Positions 5,360 to 48,166 of a stretch of DNA of 64,000 bases are shown piece after piece. Source of the DNA: Catenuloplanes niger (GTDB lineage: Bacteria; Actinomycetota; Actinomycetes; Mycobacteriales; Micromonosporaceae); NCBI RefSeq assembly GCF_031458255.1, contig NZ_JAVDYC010000001.1, positions 2,427,001-2,491,000 on the forward strand. The letters run 5' to 3'. Below the pieces are notes generated by a model. The model worked only from the letters and a program-made list of their open reading frames with translations, was not told where the DNA came from and ran no database searches. The position numbers and the translations under genes were made by a program. Each line of letters begins with the position of its first letter. Position 1 is the stretch's first letter.

Positions 5360-6021
5360 TGGCCGAAGGGACGAGCATCACCCTGGACGAAGCAGTCGAT
5401 CTCGCTCGTACGGGTGACATGTGGGTGTTTCGCGGACGGAGCGCGGCGGACCGTGCCATCCAGACGCTGACCAACAGCCCGGTGAACCACGTGGGCATGT
5501 GCGTGGTCATCGACGACATGCCGCCCCTGATGTGGCACGCCGAGCTGGGCCGGTCGCTGCCCGACCTGTGGAGCGGCACCCACCAGCGCGGCGTGCAGCT
5601 GCACGACATGCGGCAGGCGGTCACGGTCTGGGGCATGCGGTACGGCCAGCGCGGCTGGCTGCGGCAGCTGGAGCCGGGCGTGACGCGGCAGATGGAGGAC
5701 GCGGTGCTGCGGACGATCGCGCGCCTGGACGGCACGCCGTTCCCGTCGACCGCGCAGCTGGCCTGGCGGTGGGCGAAGGGCCGGGTGCCCAACATCCGGT
5801 TCCGCAAGGAGGAGGCGCAGGAGAACGAGCTGGAGAAGGCGTACTGCGCCGAGGTCGTGGCCGTCACCTACGAGGAGATGGGTCTGCTCCCGCCCGGCAA
5901 GCGCCCCAACTGGTATGACCCGGGCAGCTTCTGGTCCGGCGACGACCTCGAGCTGCGGCTCGGCTACCGGCTCGGCAAGGAGATCGCGGTCAGCATCCCC
6001 GGCGCCGAGGACGAGGACTGA
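5359..6021 (+). CDS. YiiX-like permuted NlpC/P60 (papain-fold) hydrolase
   Basis: A 220-residue cytoplasmic protein without a signal peptide. It has the layout of the YiiX/YebB permuted papain-like fold: a catalytic His motif (NSPVNHVGM, His about residue 48) comes first and the catalytic Cys motif (KAYCAEVVAVTYEEMGLL, Cys about residue 162) second, the reverse of classical NlpC/P60. Relatives cleave amide or lipid-ester bonds; the substrate here is unknown. The start follows a putative leaderless promoter shared with the divergent small membrane protein. Confidence 0.7.
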   Translation: MAEGTSITLDEAVDLARTGDMWVFRGRSAADRAIQTLTNSPVNHVGMCVVIDDMPPLMWHAELGRSLPDLWSGTHQRGVQLHDMRQAVTVWGMRYGQRGWLRQLEPGVTRQMEDAVLRTIARLDGTPFPSTAQLAWRWAKGRVPNIRFRKEEAQENELEKAYCAEVVAVTYEEMGLLPPGKRPNWYDPGSFWSGDDLELRLGYRLGKEIAVSIPGAEDED

Positions 6022-6052
6022 CCTCGGGGCGGCCGCGCCGGTGATCGCCCGG

Positions 6053-6102
6053 GTTCGAGGCGTCGTCCACATCGCGTGAACGACGTGGACGACGCCTCGA
6101 AC
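6053..6102. terminator. Perfect 18-bp inverted repeat between convergent genes
   Basis: Arms at 6053-6070 and 6085-6102 are exactly complementary over 18 bp with a 14-nt loop. They lie between the stops of the YiiX-like gene (+) and the GH74 gene (-), so a bidirectional terminator is the likeliest role. Confidence 0.75.
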
Positions 6103-6118
6103 ACGAGCCGGGCGACGG

Positions 6119-8833
6119 TCAGGCGCGGGCGCAGGTGAGCGCGGCCGGGACCGCGTTGGTGCCGGTCCAGGAGCCGAGGAAGCCGGCCGTGGCCGACGCG
6201 CCGGGGGCCAGCGCGCCGTTCCAGGTCGCGTTCCGCACGGACACGGCCGCGCCGCTCTGCGTGGCGGTGCCGCCCCAGGCCTGGCTGATCGTCTGACCGT
6301 TGGCGAAGGTCCAGTTCACCGACCAGCCGGTGGTGGCCGTACCGCCGGTGTTCGTCACCGTGACCTCGCCCTGGAAGCCACCGGTCCACTGCCCGGTGAC
6401 GGTGTAGACCGCCGAGCACCCGGCCGGCGCGGGGCTGCCCGTGGGACCGGTCGTGGGACTGCCCGTGGGACCGGCGGTCGGGCCGGTCGTCGGGCTCGCG
6501 GACGCGGTCGGGGACGACGTCGGCGTGACCGTGGCGGTCGGCGTCGTGGTCGGGGCACGGTCCGCGTAGAGGATGCCGCGGCCGTTCGTGCCCAGGTAGA
6601 CGCGGCCGAAGACGCGCGGGTCGCCGGTCAGCGCGTCGCCCATGTTCCCGTACTGGTGCGCGTCGTCGTTGATCCGCACCCAGGCGCCGCCCGCGTTGTC
6701 CGAGCGGAACACGCCGGTCACGCCGTCGACCGTGCCGACCAGGTAGACCGCCTGGTACGACGCGCCCGGCGCGGCCTTGCCGAAGCCCACGTTGACCGCC
6801 GACGTGACCGTGGCGACCCGGGTGAACGTGGCGCCCGCGTCCGTGGACCGGAACAGTCTCTCGTCCCCGGTGATCCAGACGTGGCCCTCGGCGCCGGCCA
6901 CCGCCTTCAGGTTGACCCGCCCGGTCGCCGGCACCGTGGCGGACGACGCCGTGAACGTGGCGCCGCCGTCCGTGCTGACGTAGAACCGGCCGGCCGACCA
7001 GCCGTAGAACGTGCCCGGGTCGACCCGGTCGGCCTCGACCTTCGCGCCGGCCGGGATGCCGGCCGACGGCGACCACGAGCTGCCGCGCGTGGTCGAGTGG
7101 TGCACGGCCGTGCCGTCCGGCGCCCACACCACCGAGCCGGCGTCCGCGCTGATCGCCACCTTGCCGCCGTTCGTCACGCCGGCCGGCTCCTGACCCTGGT
7201 ACCAGGTGCGGCCGCCGTCCGTGGAGATGCCGATCCGGTTGACGTTCGGGTAGTCGGTGCGGTTGACGTTGCCGACCCGGACCATCACGGACGGGTTCAG
7301 CTCCGCGAAGTCCAGCCCGGTGTTGCTGCCCAGCGTGGGCGACAGGTGCATGGCGGCCGGCACCGCGTCCAGGTTCGCGTGGTGGAAGCCGCCGATGTCG
7401 CCGAGCGCGGAGACCAACGGCGCGCCGGTCGGCGGGCTGACCAGGTCGAGGACCGCGGTCTCCTCCAGTCCCTCGACGAACGGCGTGATGGTGAACGGCG
7501 TGCCGGTGTCCCAGTTCGTCAGCTGGGTGGTGCCGTAGACGGTGGCGCCGGTGCCGTACAGCATGCGGTCGGAGTCGAACGGGTCGATCTCGATGGACTC
7601 GTTCATCCAGCCGAGCTTCGGTGTCTGGGCCGGCGCGGTCGGATTCTCGCCGAAGTCCAGCCACGGCACGGACGAGATGTCCATCGTGTACTTGTTGACC
7701 CGGTTCGGGTAGCCGGCGTAGTCCCAGATCCGGCTCCAGGTCGCGCCCGCGTCCGTGGAGCGCCAGAAGATCGCGTCCGGCCACCAGGAGATCTGCGAGC
7801 CGACGATCAGCGTGTCCGGGTCCTGCCGGTCGACCGTCAGGCCGGAGTAGCCGAAGTACTGGTCCGCGGAGGTGACCGGGACCGGGGAGATGTCGGTCCA
7901 GGTGCCGGTCGCGGTGCCGTACTTCCAGACCTGGCCGTGCCCGCCGTCGTACGGTCCGCCGGTGTCGCTGGTCGCCAGGTAGAGCTGGTCGTTCACGGTG
8001 TCCAGCACGCCCTTGTGCGCGAGGTAGCCGGTCGGCGCGCCGGGCAGGCGTTCCCAGCTCGTACCCCCGTCGGTGGATCGGTAGACGGGGTTGTCCTTGT
8101 CCGCGACGCCGACGTAGATCACCTGCGTCCGGTTGCCGCGGGTGCCGGTGCCCTCGTCGAACGTGACCCAGGTGACGCCCTGGTTGTGGTTGAGGTAGCC
8201 GTTCGGGTCCGCCGGGTCCTGCGCGTAGTTGCCCGCGTTCGGGAAGCTGGTGACCTCGGCCCAGGTGACGCCCCGGTCGGTGGAGCGCCAGAGGCCGTTG
8301 CCGTCCTCCGCGCCGAAGTAGAGCACCCGGTTGTCGTTGGGGTCGATCGCCAGGCGCTCGCCCTGGCCGCGGCCGGGCATGTTGCCGCCCACCTTGAACG
8401 GCAGCGGCGTGACCTGCCAGGTGGCGCCGCGGTCGGCCGAGCGGATGATCGCGCCGTTGTTCGGGTCCCAGGAGTTCGTGTACATGCCGACGGCCGCGTA
8501 GACGCGGTTCGGGTCGACCGCGTCGGTGGCGATGCTGAGCACGCCGTTCCAGCCCCAGTTGTGCTGGCCGACCCAGTCCAGCAGCGGCACCCAGCGCCGC
8601 CCGGCCTCGTTCCACCGGTACGCGCCGCCGATGTCCGTACGCGCGTAGATCAGGTTTCGTTCCGTGCGGTTGAAGACGATGCCGGGCACGAACCCACCGC
8701 CGTCGATCCGGACGTTCTTCCAGGTGTACGGCTCGGTGACGGCCGCGTTCGCGGTGCCGGTGACCGGCATGACCACGGTCATCGTGCCGGCGGTGAGCAG
8801 GGCGGCGAGTGCGCCGGCGAGTTTCCTGCGCAT
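6119..8833 (-). CDS. Secreted GH74 xyloglucanase with C-terminal CBM2
   Basis: A 904-residue secreted enzyme. Residues 1-31 are a signal peptide (MRRKLAGALAALL, cleaved after ANA). A GH74 seven-bladed double propeller spans about 35-740, with repeated Asp-box-type motifs (RSTDGG, RSTDRG, STDGGATF). The likely catalytic acids are Asp67 (TDIGGAYRW) and the Asp of the internal LGDIGGFHH. A Thr/Pro/Ser linker and a cellulose-binding CBM2 (CSAVYTVTGQWTGGF to the end) follow. GH74 enzymes cut the beta-1,4 backbone of xyloglucan, so this is a plant cell-wall degrader. It is monocistronic, with a terminator downstream. Confidence 0.93.
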   Translation of the reverse strand: MRRKLAGALAALLTAGTMTVVMPVTGTANAAVTEPYTWKNVRIDGGGFVPGIVFNRTERNLIYARTDIGGAYRWNEAGRRWVPLLDWVGQHNWGWNGVLSIATDAVDPNRVYAAVGMYTNSWDPNNGAIIRSADRGATWQVTPLPFKVGGNMPGRGQGERLAIDPNDNRVLYFGAEDGNGLWRSTDRGVTWAEVTSFPNAGNYAQDPADPNGYLNHNQGVTWVTFDEGTGTRGNRTQVIYVGVADKDNPVYRSTDGGTSWERLPGAPTGYLAHKGVLDTVNDQLYLATSDTGGPYDGGHGQVWKYGTATGTWTDISPVPVTSADQYFGYSGLTVDRQDPDTLIVGSQISWWPDAIFWRSTDAGATWSRIWDYAGYPNRVNKYTMDISSVPWLDFGENPTAPAQTPKLGWMNESIEIDPFDSDRMLYGTGATVYGTTQLTNWDTGTPFTITPFVEGLEETAVLDLVSPPTGAPLVSALGDIGGFHHANLDAVPAAMHLSPTLGSNTGLDFAELNPSVMVRVGNVNRTDYPNVNRIGISTDGGRTWYQGQEPAGVTNGGKVAISADAGSVVWAPDGTAVHHSTTRGSSWSPSAGIPAGAKVEADRVDPGTFYGWSAGRFYVSTDGGATFTASSATVPATGRVNLKAVAGAEGHVWITGDERLFRSTDAGATFTRVATVTSAVNVGFGKAAPGASYQAVYLVGTVDGVTGVFRSDNAGGAWVRINDDAHQYGNMGDALTGDPRVFGRVYLGTNGRGILYADRAPTTTPTATVTPTSSPTASASPTTGPTAGPTGSPTTGPTGSPAPAGCSAVYTVTGQWTGGFQGEVTVTNTGGTATTGWSVNWTFANGQTISQAWGGTATQSGAAVSVRNATWNGALAPGASATAGFLGSWTGTNAVPAALTCARA

Positions 8834-46325: not shown

Positions 46326-46353
46326 GGTTGCGGCCGTGGGTCATCATCATCGG

Positions 46354-47088
46354 GTGACCACGCTCAGCCAGATCATCGCGATCACCAAGGGAGTCAAGGC
46401 GCAGAGCCTGCGCGACTTCACCGACGCGCACCGCAACACGCAGAAGGCACCGCTGCTGTCCGGCATCTCCCGGAAGTACCGGCCGAAGGACGAGGAGGGC
46501 GAGCAGCTGCCGCCCGAGTCGACCCGCGTGCAGCTCTCCGCGGAGGACGTGCTGGCCGACACCGCGAAGACGCTGACCCGGCTCTTCGATCTGGTGCTGA
46601 CGCAGGACACGGCGAACACGGTGGCCAAGGCGGACGTGGTGGTCGACGGGCGCACGCTGCTGCGCGACGTGCCGGTGACCTACCTGCTCTTCCTGGAGAA
46701 GCAGCTGGCCGACCTGCACACGTTCGTGGACAAGCTGCCCGTGCTGGACCCGGCGGAGAGCTGGTCGTTCAGCCCGGAGATCGGGGCGTACGCGTCCGAC
46801 CCGGTGGAGACGGTGCGCAGCCGCAAGGTGATGCGCAACCACGTCAAGGCCGAGGCGACCAAGGAGCACCCGGCGCAGGTCGAGGTGTACACGGAGGACC
46901 AGCCGGTCGGCTACTGGACGACCGTGAAGCTCTCCGGCGCGCTGCCCGCGACCCGGGTCAAGGAGCTGCGCGAGCGCGTGCAGCGGTTGCAGCAGGCGGT
47001 CAAGTTCGCCCGCGAGCAGGCCAACACGTTCGAGGTGACCGACGTGAAGGCCGGGGAGGCCGTCTTCGGCTACCTGTTCGCACGGTAG
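46354..47088 (+). CDS. Conserved actinobacterial protein of unknown function (DUF7873-like)
   Basis: About 244 residues from GTG 46354; another GTG at 46336 is possible but gives a His-rich extension. The N-terminus TTLSQIIAITKGVKAQSLRDF and the central block LLRDVPVTYLLFLEKQL followed by FVDKLPVLDPAESW are typical of a widespread actinobacterial family. It is helical with charged segments and no membrane or catalytic motif. It is followed by terminator-like hairpins and the tRNA-like region. Function unknown. Confidence 0.75.
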   Translation: MTTLSQIIAITKGVKAQSLRDFTDAHRNTQKAPLLSGISRKYRPKDEEGEQLPPESTRVQLSAEDVLADTAKTLTRLFDLVLTQDTANTVAKADVVVDGRTLLRDVPVTYLLFLEKQLADLHTFVDKLPVLDPAESWSFSPEIGAYASDPVETVRSRKVMRNHVKAEATKEHPAQVEVYTEDQPVGYWTTVKLSGALPATRVKELRERVQRLQQAVKFAREQANTFEVTDVKAGEAVFGYLFAR

Positions 47089-47100
47089 ATTCCAGGGACT

Positions 47101-47143
47101 CCCCGCTGTGGAGCGGCGGGGTGGGGTGCCCAGAGCGGCACCC
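47101..47143 (+). terminator. Two hairpins after the DUF gene
   Basis: CCCCGC...GCGGGG-type pairing at 47101-47121 is followed by a perfect 7-bp hairpin, GGGTGCC-CAGAGC-GGCACCC (47124-47143). They start 12 nt after the stop. They may terminate the upstream gene or form the 5' cap of the structured RNA that follows. Confidence 0.45.
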
Positions 47144-47148
47144 AGCAA

Positions 47149-47297
47149 GCTGAGACTGAACGGATCAGGCTGAAACGCTGCGACGGTGACAGTGAAGGTT
47201 CGACTCCTTCCCCCGCGACAGACCACCGCGGGGTAGCCCAACTGGTAGAGGCAGCCCGAGGGCAACGTCAAGCTCAGACTCTTGCTCCAGGCTCAGC
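47149..47297 (+). tRNA. Permuted tRNA-like element 1 (3' half before 5' half)
   Basis: A complete T arm GAAGG-TTCGACT-CCTTC (47194-47210) is followed by acceptor strand CCCCGCG (47211-47217) and A-CA, then a 6-nt linker, then CGCGGGG (47227-47233), which pairs 7/7 with it. Directly after come TA and a D arm (GCC-CAACTGGTAGA-GGC, 47236-47252). So the 3' half precedes the 5' half. The flanks close it: 47149-47158 pairs with 47288-47297 (9 of 10), 47167-47173 with 47274-47280 (6 of 7) and 47182-47185 with 47266-47269. The anticodon cannot be assigned securely; CTCAGAC at 47273-47279 would suggest CAG (Leu). It may be a functional permuted tRNA, a pseudo-tRNA or a regulatory mimic. Confidence 0.6.
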
Positions 47298-47327
47298 ATT
47301 CGCCACCGATCGCCAGATCGAACGGTC

Positions 47328-47426
47328 GCGGAGTGACGCCACGTGATACCGGTTCGAGTCCGGTTCGCGCCTCCAACACGGCGCGGTAGCTCAATGGCAG
47401 AGCGCGATGGCTTTAGCCTCATCCGC
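47328..47426 (+). tRNA. Permuted tRNA-like element 2 (3' half before 5' half, CCA encoded)
   Basis: T arm ACCGG-TTCGAGT-CCGGT (47348-47364), acceptor strand TCGCGCC (47365-47371), discriminator T and CCA (47373-47375), a 4-nt linker ACAC, then acceptor strand GGCGCGG (47380-47386; 6 Watson-Crick pairs and one G-U), TA and D arm GCTC-AATGGCA-GAGC (47389-47403). TGGC (47408-47411) pairs with GCCA (47338-47341) as anticodon stem; the following TTTAG would make anticodon UAG (Leu) if joined to AC at 47336-47337. Outside it, 47328-47336 pairs with 47419-47426 (8 bp, one bulge). Two extra bases lie between the D arm and anticodon stem. A local hairpin GATG...CATC is an alternative. Confidence 0.65.
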
Positions 47427-47472
47427 GGCCTTAAACGCCACTGGCGTGCGCAATTGGGTGGTCAACGTGGGG

Positions 47473-47496
47473 GCCCCGGGTAGGGTAACCCGGGGC
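47473..47496. terminator. Hairpin between the tRNA-like region and the cutinase gene
   Basis: A perfect 9-bp stem (GCCCCGGGT / ACCCGGGGC) with a 6-nt loop lies 10 nt beyond the cutinase stop. It can end both the plus-strand RNA and the minus-strand cutinase transcript. Confidence 0.75.
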
Positions 47497-47506
47497 TCCG
47501 CCATCT

Positions 47507-48166
47507 CTACAGCTGTCCGGCGGTGAAGCCGACCGCGTCGTCCCGGAAGCCGGCGTAGTTGATGTGCGCGGCCAGGCTGGTCCCCGACTGGCAGAACCGG
47601 TCGTTGCGGTTGCAGTACGACTGGATCCGGTCGGCGAACCCGTCCAGCGCGCCGGCGCCGCGCGGGAAGACGCCCTGCCGGGCGCCGTCCGTGACGTTGA
47701 AGTCCTCGCCGCGGGTGAACGTGGGATCGCCGAAGAGCAGCACAGACGCGACGTTGCCGGCCAGGTCGCCGTCGAGCCGGGTCAGCGTGTCGCCGACCAC
47801 GTCCGCACCCTGGGAGTAGCCCATCAGCACGATCCGCGTCTCCGGGCACTCGGCCGCGGTGGCCGCGATGTCCTCCTGGAGCTGCGTCACACCGGCCCGC
47901 ACGCTCGCCGCGTAGTTGAAGTTCGCGGGGTAGTCGAGCGCGGTGGTGCGTACCGTCTGGGGAAGTTCGCGGGTCATCTGCTGCGCCAGCGGCGTCAGGA
48001 CGACGCCGAGACCGGGGCGTTCCGTGGTGCCGCGCGCGCCGATGATCTCGACGTCGGCGCAGTCGTTCGCCGGTGCGGTCGCCGCGAACGCCATCGGTGC
48101 CGCGATCACTCCACCGCCGACGGCCAGCGCGCCCGCGAGGACCACGGCCAGCTTCTTGCCCTTCAT
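47507..48166 (-). CDS. Secreted cutinase-family esterase
   Basis: A 219-residue secreted serine esterase from ATG 48166. The signal peptide is residues 1-29 (KLAVVLAGALAVGG, cleaved near AFAA). The nucleophile Ser118 lies in VLMGYSQGADV. The later DRIQSYCNRNDRFC and SLAAHINYAGF supply the Asp and His region and the conserved Cys pair. Cutinases and their actinobacterial relatives cleave cutin or lipid esters. It is monocistronic, convergent with the tRNA-like region. Confidence 0.9.
   Translation of the reverse strand: MKGKKLAVVLAGALAVGGGVIAAPMAFAATAPANDCADVEIIGARGTTERPGLGVVLTPLAQQMTRELPQTVRTTALDYPANFNYAASVRAGVTQLQEDIAATAAECPETRIVLMGYSQGADVVGDTLTRLDGDLAGNVASVLLFGDPTFTRGEDFNVTDGARQGVFPRGAGALDGFADRIQSYCNRNDRFCQSGTSLAAHINYAGFRDDAVGFTAGQL

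Follow-up and report, generated by a model that had tools for sequence, protein, structure and literature searches.

Tandem permuted tRNA-like units beside a DUF7873 gene in Catenuloplanes niger suggest a Ro-independent tRNA-mimic RNA

What does a bacterial chromosome encode when the arms of a tRNA appear in the wrong order? In the window analyzed here (the whole stretch of 64,000 nucleotides of Catenuloplanes niger DNA), a short element carries, from 5' to 3', a T arm, the 3' strand of an acceptor stem, a linker, the 5' strand of the acceptor stem and a D arm (47348-47403). A sequence-only reading had proposed a circularly permuted tRNA gene and, as a fallback, a tRNA mimic; our results support the fallback. 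We assign a probability of roughly 0.7 to the reading that the element forms the second of two tRNA-mimicking heads on a Ro-independent ribonucleoprotein that includes the DUF7873 protein. On comparative evidence, the structure of the RNA and its linkage to the DUF7873 gene are established, and the pair looks like an apparently undescribed cousin of the tRNA-mimicking Y RNAs. In a literature search that mostly excluded subscription papers, we found no paper naming "DUF7873" and, in titles and abstract openings, no description of such an RNA.

The element, which we call unit B, has a T arm at 47348-47364 (identified by our detector of tRNA-like units and by the alifold consensus; helix 11 of our covariation count), an acceptor stem at 47365-47386 (helix 12) and a D arm at 47389-47403 (helix 13, with 98.9% of alignment cells paired). 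These and all other features of the RNA and its gene lie on the plus strand. The 3' acceptor strand (47365-47371) and the 5' acceptor strand (47380-47386) flank the linker TCCAACAC (47372-47379), which consists of a discriminator T, CCA and ACAC, and the dinucleotide TA separates the 5' acceptor strand from the D arm. The permuted arm order is therefore present where it had been reported, as is the encoded CCA within a circularly permuted tRNA-like domain. The acceptor strands pair in 7 of 7 positions with one G-U, according to both the detector and the alifold consensus, and all seven pairs show two-sided change among relatives, with 99.7% of cells paired.

Helices below this top extend it considerably. 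An anticodon-stem-like helix pairs 47338-47344 with 47405-47411 (helix 10: two-sided change in 5 of 7 pairs, 80.3% of cells paired) and contains the GCCA/TGGC helix that had been noticed previously (47338-47341 with 47408-47411). What the sequence-only reading took as an outer helix, at about 47326-47333 with 47420-47428, is an inner helix of unit B, formed by 47324-47333 and 47420-47430 (helix 9: two-sided change in 9 of 9 pairs). Both helices exist and covary in relatives. A basal stem follows, pairing 47302-47320 with 47436-47462 (alifold consensus; helices 6-8 of the covariation count). The 3' strands of these helices and a conserved CTTAAACG segment together occupy 47405-47462, as determined from sequence conservation and the alifold consensus.

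When both strands of the window were scanned, the detector gave scores of 17 at 47348 and 16 at 47194, both on the plus strand, and 14-15 for its three remaining hits. The arrangement is thus not due to chance, and the element is the second of two tandem units. The twin, the basal stems, a 3' hairpin and the DUF7873 gene had been omitted from the sequence-only reading. Unit A has the same permuted order at 47194-47252. Its T arm (47194-47210; detector and consensus, helix 3) is paired in 99.6% of cells, and its acceptor stem (47211-47233, helix 4; 3' strand 47211-47217, linker 47218-47226, 5' strand 47227-47233) shows two-sided change in 7 of 7 pairs with 100% of cells paired. The D arm (47236-47252; consensus, helix 5) never varies and so provides no covariation evidence. 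The basal stem of unit A pairs 47149-47173 with 47274-47297 in the alifold consensus of 36 actinobacterial sequences (helices 1-2; 95.6% and 91.3% of cells paired), and is weakly proven because its pairs are mostly invariant or changed on one side. A weak anticodon-stem-like helix (47183-47186 with 47256-47259) is paired in from 20 of 33 to 32 of 36 sequences, and is poorly paired in all congeners compared.

A conserved core, CTCAGACTCTTGCTCCAGGCTCAGC (47273-47297), includes the 3' strand of the unit A basal stem; it was identified by conservation and in the consensus, and supplied the pattern for an RNA-first search. The RNA terminates in a hairpin with a covarying stem and a conserved loop, here AGGGTA (47470-47499). 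In 56 of 70 non-redundant sequences, obtained by k-mer thinning of the 95 two-unit loci described below, GGNYA lies inside the best tail hairpin. This hairpin is possibly a terminator, a third functional element or both; we infer that its loop varies less than one would expect if the hairpin were simply a terminator. Loop variants seen in phages and hosts are CGGATAT, TGGATAT, AGGCTAC and AGGGTA. The whole structured RNA is predicted to span about 47126-47500, or ~350 nucleotides with approximate ends, based on the covarying consensus structure and the right boundary of homology. Between the DUF7873 stop codon and the RNA is another hairpin, CTCCCCGC...GCGGGG (47099-47121), and a similar CTCCCC...GGGG hairpin is found at several actinobacterial loci.

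Conservation and compensatory change, both named as checks in the sequence-only reading, were found in relatives. In an alignment (A2) of 45 of the 95 two-unit loci, RNAalifold predicts 49 pairs, 37 of which exhibit two-sided change. For a 74-pair structure, 95.8% of cells in 45 relatives are paired, and 385 cells are changed on both sides, versus 93.4 in shuffled alignments and 58-82 with partners slid, a comparison in which the structure is favored over the slid versions because it was derived from the same alignments. Pairs with two-sided change number 47, versus 29.0 in shuffles, and on each of the five measures all 500 shuffles fall below the observed value. Leaders are shortened in nine viral rows of A2, so that helix 1 is assessed on 36-37 of the 45 rows; helix 2 is assessed on 44, with 18 for one of its pairs. 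The structure model in window coordinates is the consensus of the 36 actinobacterial sequences. Folding of the single sequence is modestly better than that of its shuffles (z -2.54) and recovers part of the consensus structure: both T arms, both acceptor stems, the 3' hairpin and the D arm of unit B.

The DUF7873 (PF25283) gene lies directly upstream of the RNA, at 46336-47088 (250 amino acids in its longest reading; Pfam 366.9 bits with a cut-off of 27, E 7.2e-110). Its true start may be the GTG at 46354, because homology most often begins near there. To assess the linkage, we assembled 152 protein-first loci: 80 from genomes (the best 80 of at least 528 DUF7873 relatives), 71 viral loci and the window. 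With the strict detector, 95 of the 152 loci have two units within 700 nucleotides of the DUF7873 stop codon, 49 have one and 8 have none. A covariance model, R1, comprises unit B with its stems and was trained on 29 of the 95 two-unit loci (alignment A3); it matches 150 of the 152. R1 scores 149.4 bits at the window and matches all 94 other two-unit loci, including 28 training sequences (weakest match 48.4 bits, E 7.4e-11), as well as 55 of the 57 remaining loci (E 8e-8 or better). At one of the last two, L133, a contig end cuts the RNA (E 0.015); at the other, from a Chloroflexi metagenome-assembled genome (L078, 3007-3738), DUF7873 is 65% identical and R1 detects no RNA nearby. The placement by R1 is sometimes unusual: the RNA precedes the gene at L121, is on the opposite strand at L115 and is some 0.8-1 kb downstream at L085 and L147. 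The pair at L117 was kept in these counts and is doubtful, because its second strict unit is not where R1 places the RNA.

Searches that start from the RNA lead back to the gene. The core pattern retrieved eight viral stretches (five on new contigs, three on contigs already in the protein-first set), and in all eight a DUF7873 gene ends 112-481 nucleotides upstream. A detector requiring 7 of 7 acceptor pairs finds two units at five of these stretches, one at two and none at one (L216). A second RNA pattern retrieved three stretches, all on contigs of protein-first loci (L082, L090 and L091). The left edge of pairwise DNA homology most commonly falls in the bin at -730 from the DUF7873 stop codon, near the gene start (1329 of 3240 pairs), and the right edge falls +320 to +580 past the stop codon in 2948 of 3240 pairs. 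These edges imply that the gene and the RNA form a unit common to different loci. Among ORFs of at least 90 amino acids in the fetched flanks of the 80 genome loci, no family beyond DUF7873 and frames overlapping it is common to more than 8. In the window, Pfam recognizes a LacI-type regulator, a GH81 enzyme, a cutinase and two-component genes among the neighbors.

DUF7873 was detected in seven of 396 genomes from the phylum, and exactly those seven have full-length R1 matches of at least 68 bits, the next score being 58.0, in a scan that used stricter filters and scored a few candidates per genome. At E 0.001, R1 has some match in 102 of the 396 genomes. We considered whether the weaker matches are further copies and rejected this idea, as seven of nine loci scanned for tRNAs are tandem tRNA-Asn or tRNA-Gly pairs. 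The other two are L184 and L185, and the latter has a TROVE match at a distance of about 0.4 kb.

Because adjacent identical tRNA genes can mimic the permuted order in this way, the RNA could in principle be a functionless remnant of two tandem tRNA genes that lack their outer halves. We regard this explanation as extremely improbable. It was already disfavored by the count of compensatory changes, which include changes in basal helices that are foreign to tRNA genes, and the RNA is conserved across phage and host lineages.

A more substantial alternative is suggested by Rfam. At gathering cut-offs no family matches the window. Under permissive settings, 47326-47431 matches positions 1-114 of the 114 in RF02553 (YrlA) with 38.9 bits (E 9.2e-7; cut-off 69); a second, weak match to the family covers 47166-47284 (22.9 bits, E 0.041). 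A passage of PMC8394870 describes YrlA as an RNA of 90-150 nucleotides with a tRNA-like domain and an Rsr-binding stem, and calls of yrlA in mycobacteria appear in part of PMC9569102. The RNA could therefore be a drifted Ro-type Y RNA that serves, or once served, a Ro/TROVE protein. As in YrlA with Ro60/Rsr, a top made of T arm, acceptor and D arm stands on a basal stem; YrlA too sometimes has two units, and a protein gene nearby. Moreover, among 16 actinobacterial genomes, eight that bear TROVE have an R1 match about 0.4-1.2 kb from it, with two units in four of the eight, so tRNA-like Y RNAs, also paired ones, exist in the phylum. Those matches, at the TROVE loci L190-L199, are presumably true YrlA RNAs of one or two units. 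A second TROVE match in genome G023 has no R1 match near it. The share of genomes with TROVE does not represent a random sample, because the 16 were picked for DUF7873 or R1 matches.

Several observations make this origin distinctly improbable. The one-contig 9.74-Mb genome that contains the window, which is 99.97% complete, has no match to TROVE (PF05731) at E 0.001, and TROVE was likewise not found in two others of the seven DUF7873 genomes. In the remaining four, TROVE is located elsewhere and has its own R1 match. The two systems can thus coexist, and neither needs the other. The score is below the 69-bit family cut-off, and the linkage is with DUF7873 rather than Ro/TROVE. In addition, two heads reside in one RNA of ~350 nucleotides, instead of the 90-150 nucleotides per RNA given for YrlA (PMC8394870), and this RNA, unlike YrlA, is frequent near phage tRNA genes. 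Among 14 control genomes, that of Deinobacterium chartae has both TROVE and DUF7873 matches.

How closely the heads resemble tRNA must be judged from features that the detector does not impose. A hit needed at least 6 of 7 acceptor pairs, a T loop reading TTCRA and a D loop with GG (a run on phage records also allowed a few other T loops), and the constancy of these features is consequently not evidence. Features free of this requirement are U8, A14, position 48, G1, NCCA and the basal helices. In the 70 non-redundant sequences, U8 is present in 69 (unit A) and 68 (unit B), A14 in 66 and 63, a pyrimidine at position 48 in 68 and 69, and G1 in 60 and 63. NCCA follows the 3' acceptor strand in 29 of 70 unit A and 20 of 70 unit B sequences, with a CCA background of 0.016 per position.

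Retention of these core nucleotides, and often of CCA, is what a pair of permuted tRNA genes would exhibit if their ends were joined into decoding tRNAs. Permuted tRNA genes of algae and archaea share the arm order and the 7-bp acceptor stem with a linker. ARAGORN calls no tRNA or tmRNA in the unrotated window, and it does call a tRNA in rotated versions. However, arbitrary joins are also called: 723 of 1024 outer-end joins of unit B and 435 of 1890 joins of unit A. The join behind the proposed anticodon UAG (Leu) is not singled out, and among 20 printed unit B joins the anticodons differ or are undefined. Since most unit B joins pass, joining the ends is uninformative about any anticodon, and the proposal of a leucine tRNA gene finds no support on this count. 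Unlike in permuted tRNA genes, there is no defined anticodon loop, and the arm runs on into conserved basal helices. The 70 sequences have 35 (unit A) and 47 (unit B) distinct acceptor stems, in which no stable amino-acid identity is visible. Decoding tRNAs are therefore a very improbable product. The accompanying statement that bacteria have no accepted permuted case overlooked the YrlA Y RNAs, whose Rfam model has the same arm order, and the permuted gene for two-piece tmRNA, as described in a section of PMC3985003.

The last of these raises another possibility, namely that RNase P and a 3' nuclease cut a permuted precursor at both heads; the three resulting strands, kept together by base pairing, would bear two free CCA ends, as in a two-piece tmRNA in duplicate. 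In two-piece tmRNA the 3' acceptor piece precedes the 5' acceptor and D side, with an intervening linker and CCA, and a G3-U70 pair is the alanine identity mark of tmRNA. The frequent NCCA agrees with such cleavage, as do the prevalent G1 and a U at position -1 in 48 of 70 unit B sequences (29 in unit A). Positions 73 and -1 are pairable less often than expected overall (22 of 70 versus 29.5 in unit A; 19 of 70 versus 24.5 in unit B), and acceptor linkers are 4-33 nucleotides long, the doubtful L117 unit being left out. The -1 nucleotide, the low pairing overall and the linker lengths would be compatible with RNase P cleavage and 3' processing; they do not prove it. The permuted two-piece tmRNA is itself probably processed by RNase P and a 3' nuclease, according to the relevant part of PMC3985003. 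On the other side, CCA is not universal, and the depletion of 73:-1 pairs is missing in two of four subsets (actinobacterial unit A, 12 versus 11.4; viral unit B, 14 versus 13.9). G3-U70 is rare (2 of 70 in unit A and 4 of 70 in unit B), no tmRNA family matches 46800-48000 in Rfam up to E 10, and the RNA differs from two-piece tmRNA in having two tRNA-like heads and canonical D arms. We consider a three-stranded product fairly unlikely.

DUF7873 is a Pfam family of unknown function, and its representative here has no match in PHROGs, PADLOC or NCBIfam. An AlphaFold2 model based on 62 relatives is of high confidence (pLDDT 96.4, pTM 0.84). Foldseek searches of PDB and BFVD with this model returned no match at E 0.001 or better and no confident RNA-binding fold; the viral match with the best TM-score seen, 0.60 relative to target length, was to A0A7M1RW91 (E 0.014). 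When PDB sequences were searched with a profile, two weak matches appeared, to DYNA_1b7 and DA7_2 (E 0.06-0.07), and none to the sequences of solved Ro structures. With a pI of 7.2 here and a median of 6.3 among the 62, the protein is not basic, a mild argument against RNA binding by simple electrostatics. FLEKQ (119-123), W143, Q181 and N230 are among the invariant residues.

As judged from these sequences, the protein-RNA pair recurs in soil bacteria and large phages. DUF7873 occurs in 73 phage records, ten of which provide the arrangement described here. The detector finds both units in Racecar, GodonK, NiceHouse, Pseudanabaena phage Pam2 and Klebsiella phage KpLz-2_45. The RNA of Keelan was found by R1, those of two Rhizobium phages by both methods with one strict unit each, and that of Vibrio phage D472 as one unit by the detector with no R1 match; in a Microcoleus phage record the RNA is doubtful. 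The cassette is within annotated tRNA arrays in GodonK, NiceHouse and Rhizobium phage TM21B, and at the end of an array in Racecar, while the other records have at most two annotated tRNAs in the stretch. More generally, 43 of 71 viral loci have tRNA genes in their fetched flanks versus 6 of 80 genome loci, with 419 ARAGORN calls in 711 kb versus 6 in 517 kb; 13 calls (10 viral, 3 genome) overlap the 420 nucleotides after the gene and are perhaps misread parts of the RNA. GOLLD and ROOL RNAs are also structured RNAs in or near phage tRNA arrays, as a portion of PMC12286853 describes, whereas the RNA reported here matches neither in Rfam, is smaller and is tied to one protein gene.

The non-coding RNA comprises two tandem units and, after them, the conserved-loop hairpin; in each unit a basal stem bears a permuted top that resembles tRNA, with an acceptor, a T arm, a D arm and the beginning of an anticodon stem. 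If the reading of a Ro-independent tRNA-mimic ribonucleoprotein is correct, this RNA would be transcribed and DUF7873 would bind it, using the stems as a platform, and the tRNA-shaped heads would engage enzymes that recognize tRNA by shape. Candidate targets are RNase P, tRNA-modifying or CCA-adding enzymes, PNPase and tRNA-cutting toxins. The particle would then work like Ro-YrlA, with another protein in the place of Ro. Its most plausible role would be that of a decoy or tether, shielding or steering tRNA when tRNA comes under attack in the cell. The decoy step taken alone is tentative and somewhat doubtful. It extrapolates from part of PMC7790460, where, in connection with the rsr-yrlBA-rtcBA arrangement, YrlA is suggested to be a competitive inhibitor of a tRNA-cutting nuclease, and the rarity of chromosomal copies near tRNA genes counts against it. 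A more elaborate version, which we think rather unlikely, would have the RNase P and the 3' tRNA nuclease of the host cut both linkers of a ribonucleoprotein mobile between phages and bacteria; the resulting three-stranded particle on DUF7873, with two CCA ends, would be used by phages with tRNA arrays to occupy or disarm tRNA-acting enzymes.

A second permuted-mimic system that is independent of Ro would mean that mounting a tRNA mimic on a stem is a recurring solution rather than a peculiarity of Ro. For the widespread DUF7873 family, a candidate RNA partner would also open the way to a direct test. Proximity to phage tRNA genes bears on how phages defend or manage their tRNAs, and some YrlA calls below the cut-off in genomes that lack Ro could belong to this class.

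Comparison within the genus provides one natural deletion. The locus is stable in the genus: in five genomes, the flanking cutinase is present in all, as is DUF7873, which is truncated in one. In that congener (G398), only DUF7873 profile positions 210-243 remain, and the aligned DNA breaks off at 46326 and picks up again at 46988. The RNA of G398 retains 91.8% identity, but in unit A T54 is changed to C and one basal pair is broken. Congeners L202 and L203 retain T54 and the basal pair; the intact congener L204 retains both, yet has other broken pairs, one of them in the unit B acceptor stem. As a single case, G398 is weak evidence that the RNA depends on DUF7873.

Burroughs and Aravind reportedly described in 2016 a novel tRNA-like molecule associated with SPFH/Band-7 proteins. 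The Rhodococcus phage NiceHouse has a Band-7-like gene (L165:4377-5249) soon downstream of DUF7873, and given this neighbor, an overlap between the two RNAs is possible. At L163, L166 and several viral loci, some of them in remote phages, the D arm of unit A is TGGCGGAATTGGTAGACGC, which we take to resemble that of leucine tRNA; the likeness in remote phages suggests exchange with real tRNAs. At L085, an ORF of 186 amino acids (5857-6417) lies inside the RNA, where it separates the first part of unit A from unit B; by eye its product resembles an HNH endonuclease, as though a homing gene had inserted itself there.
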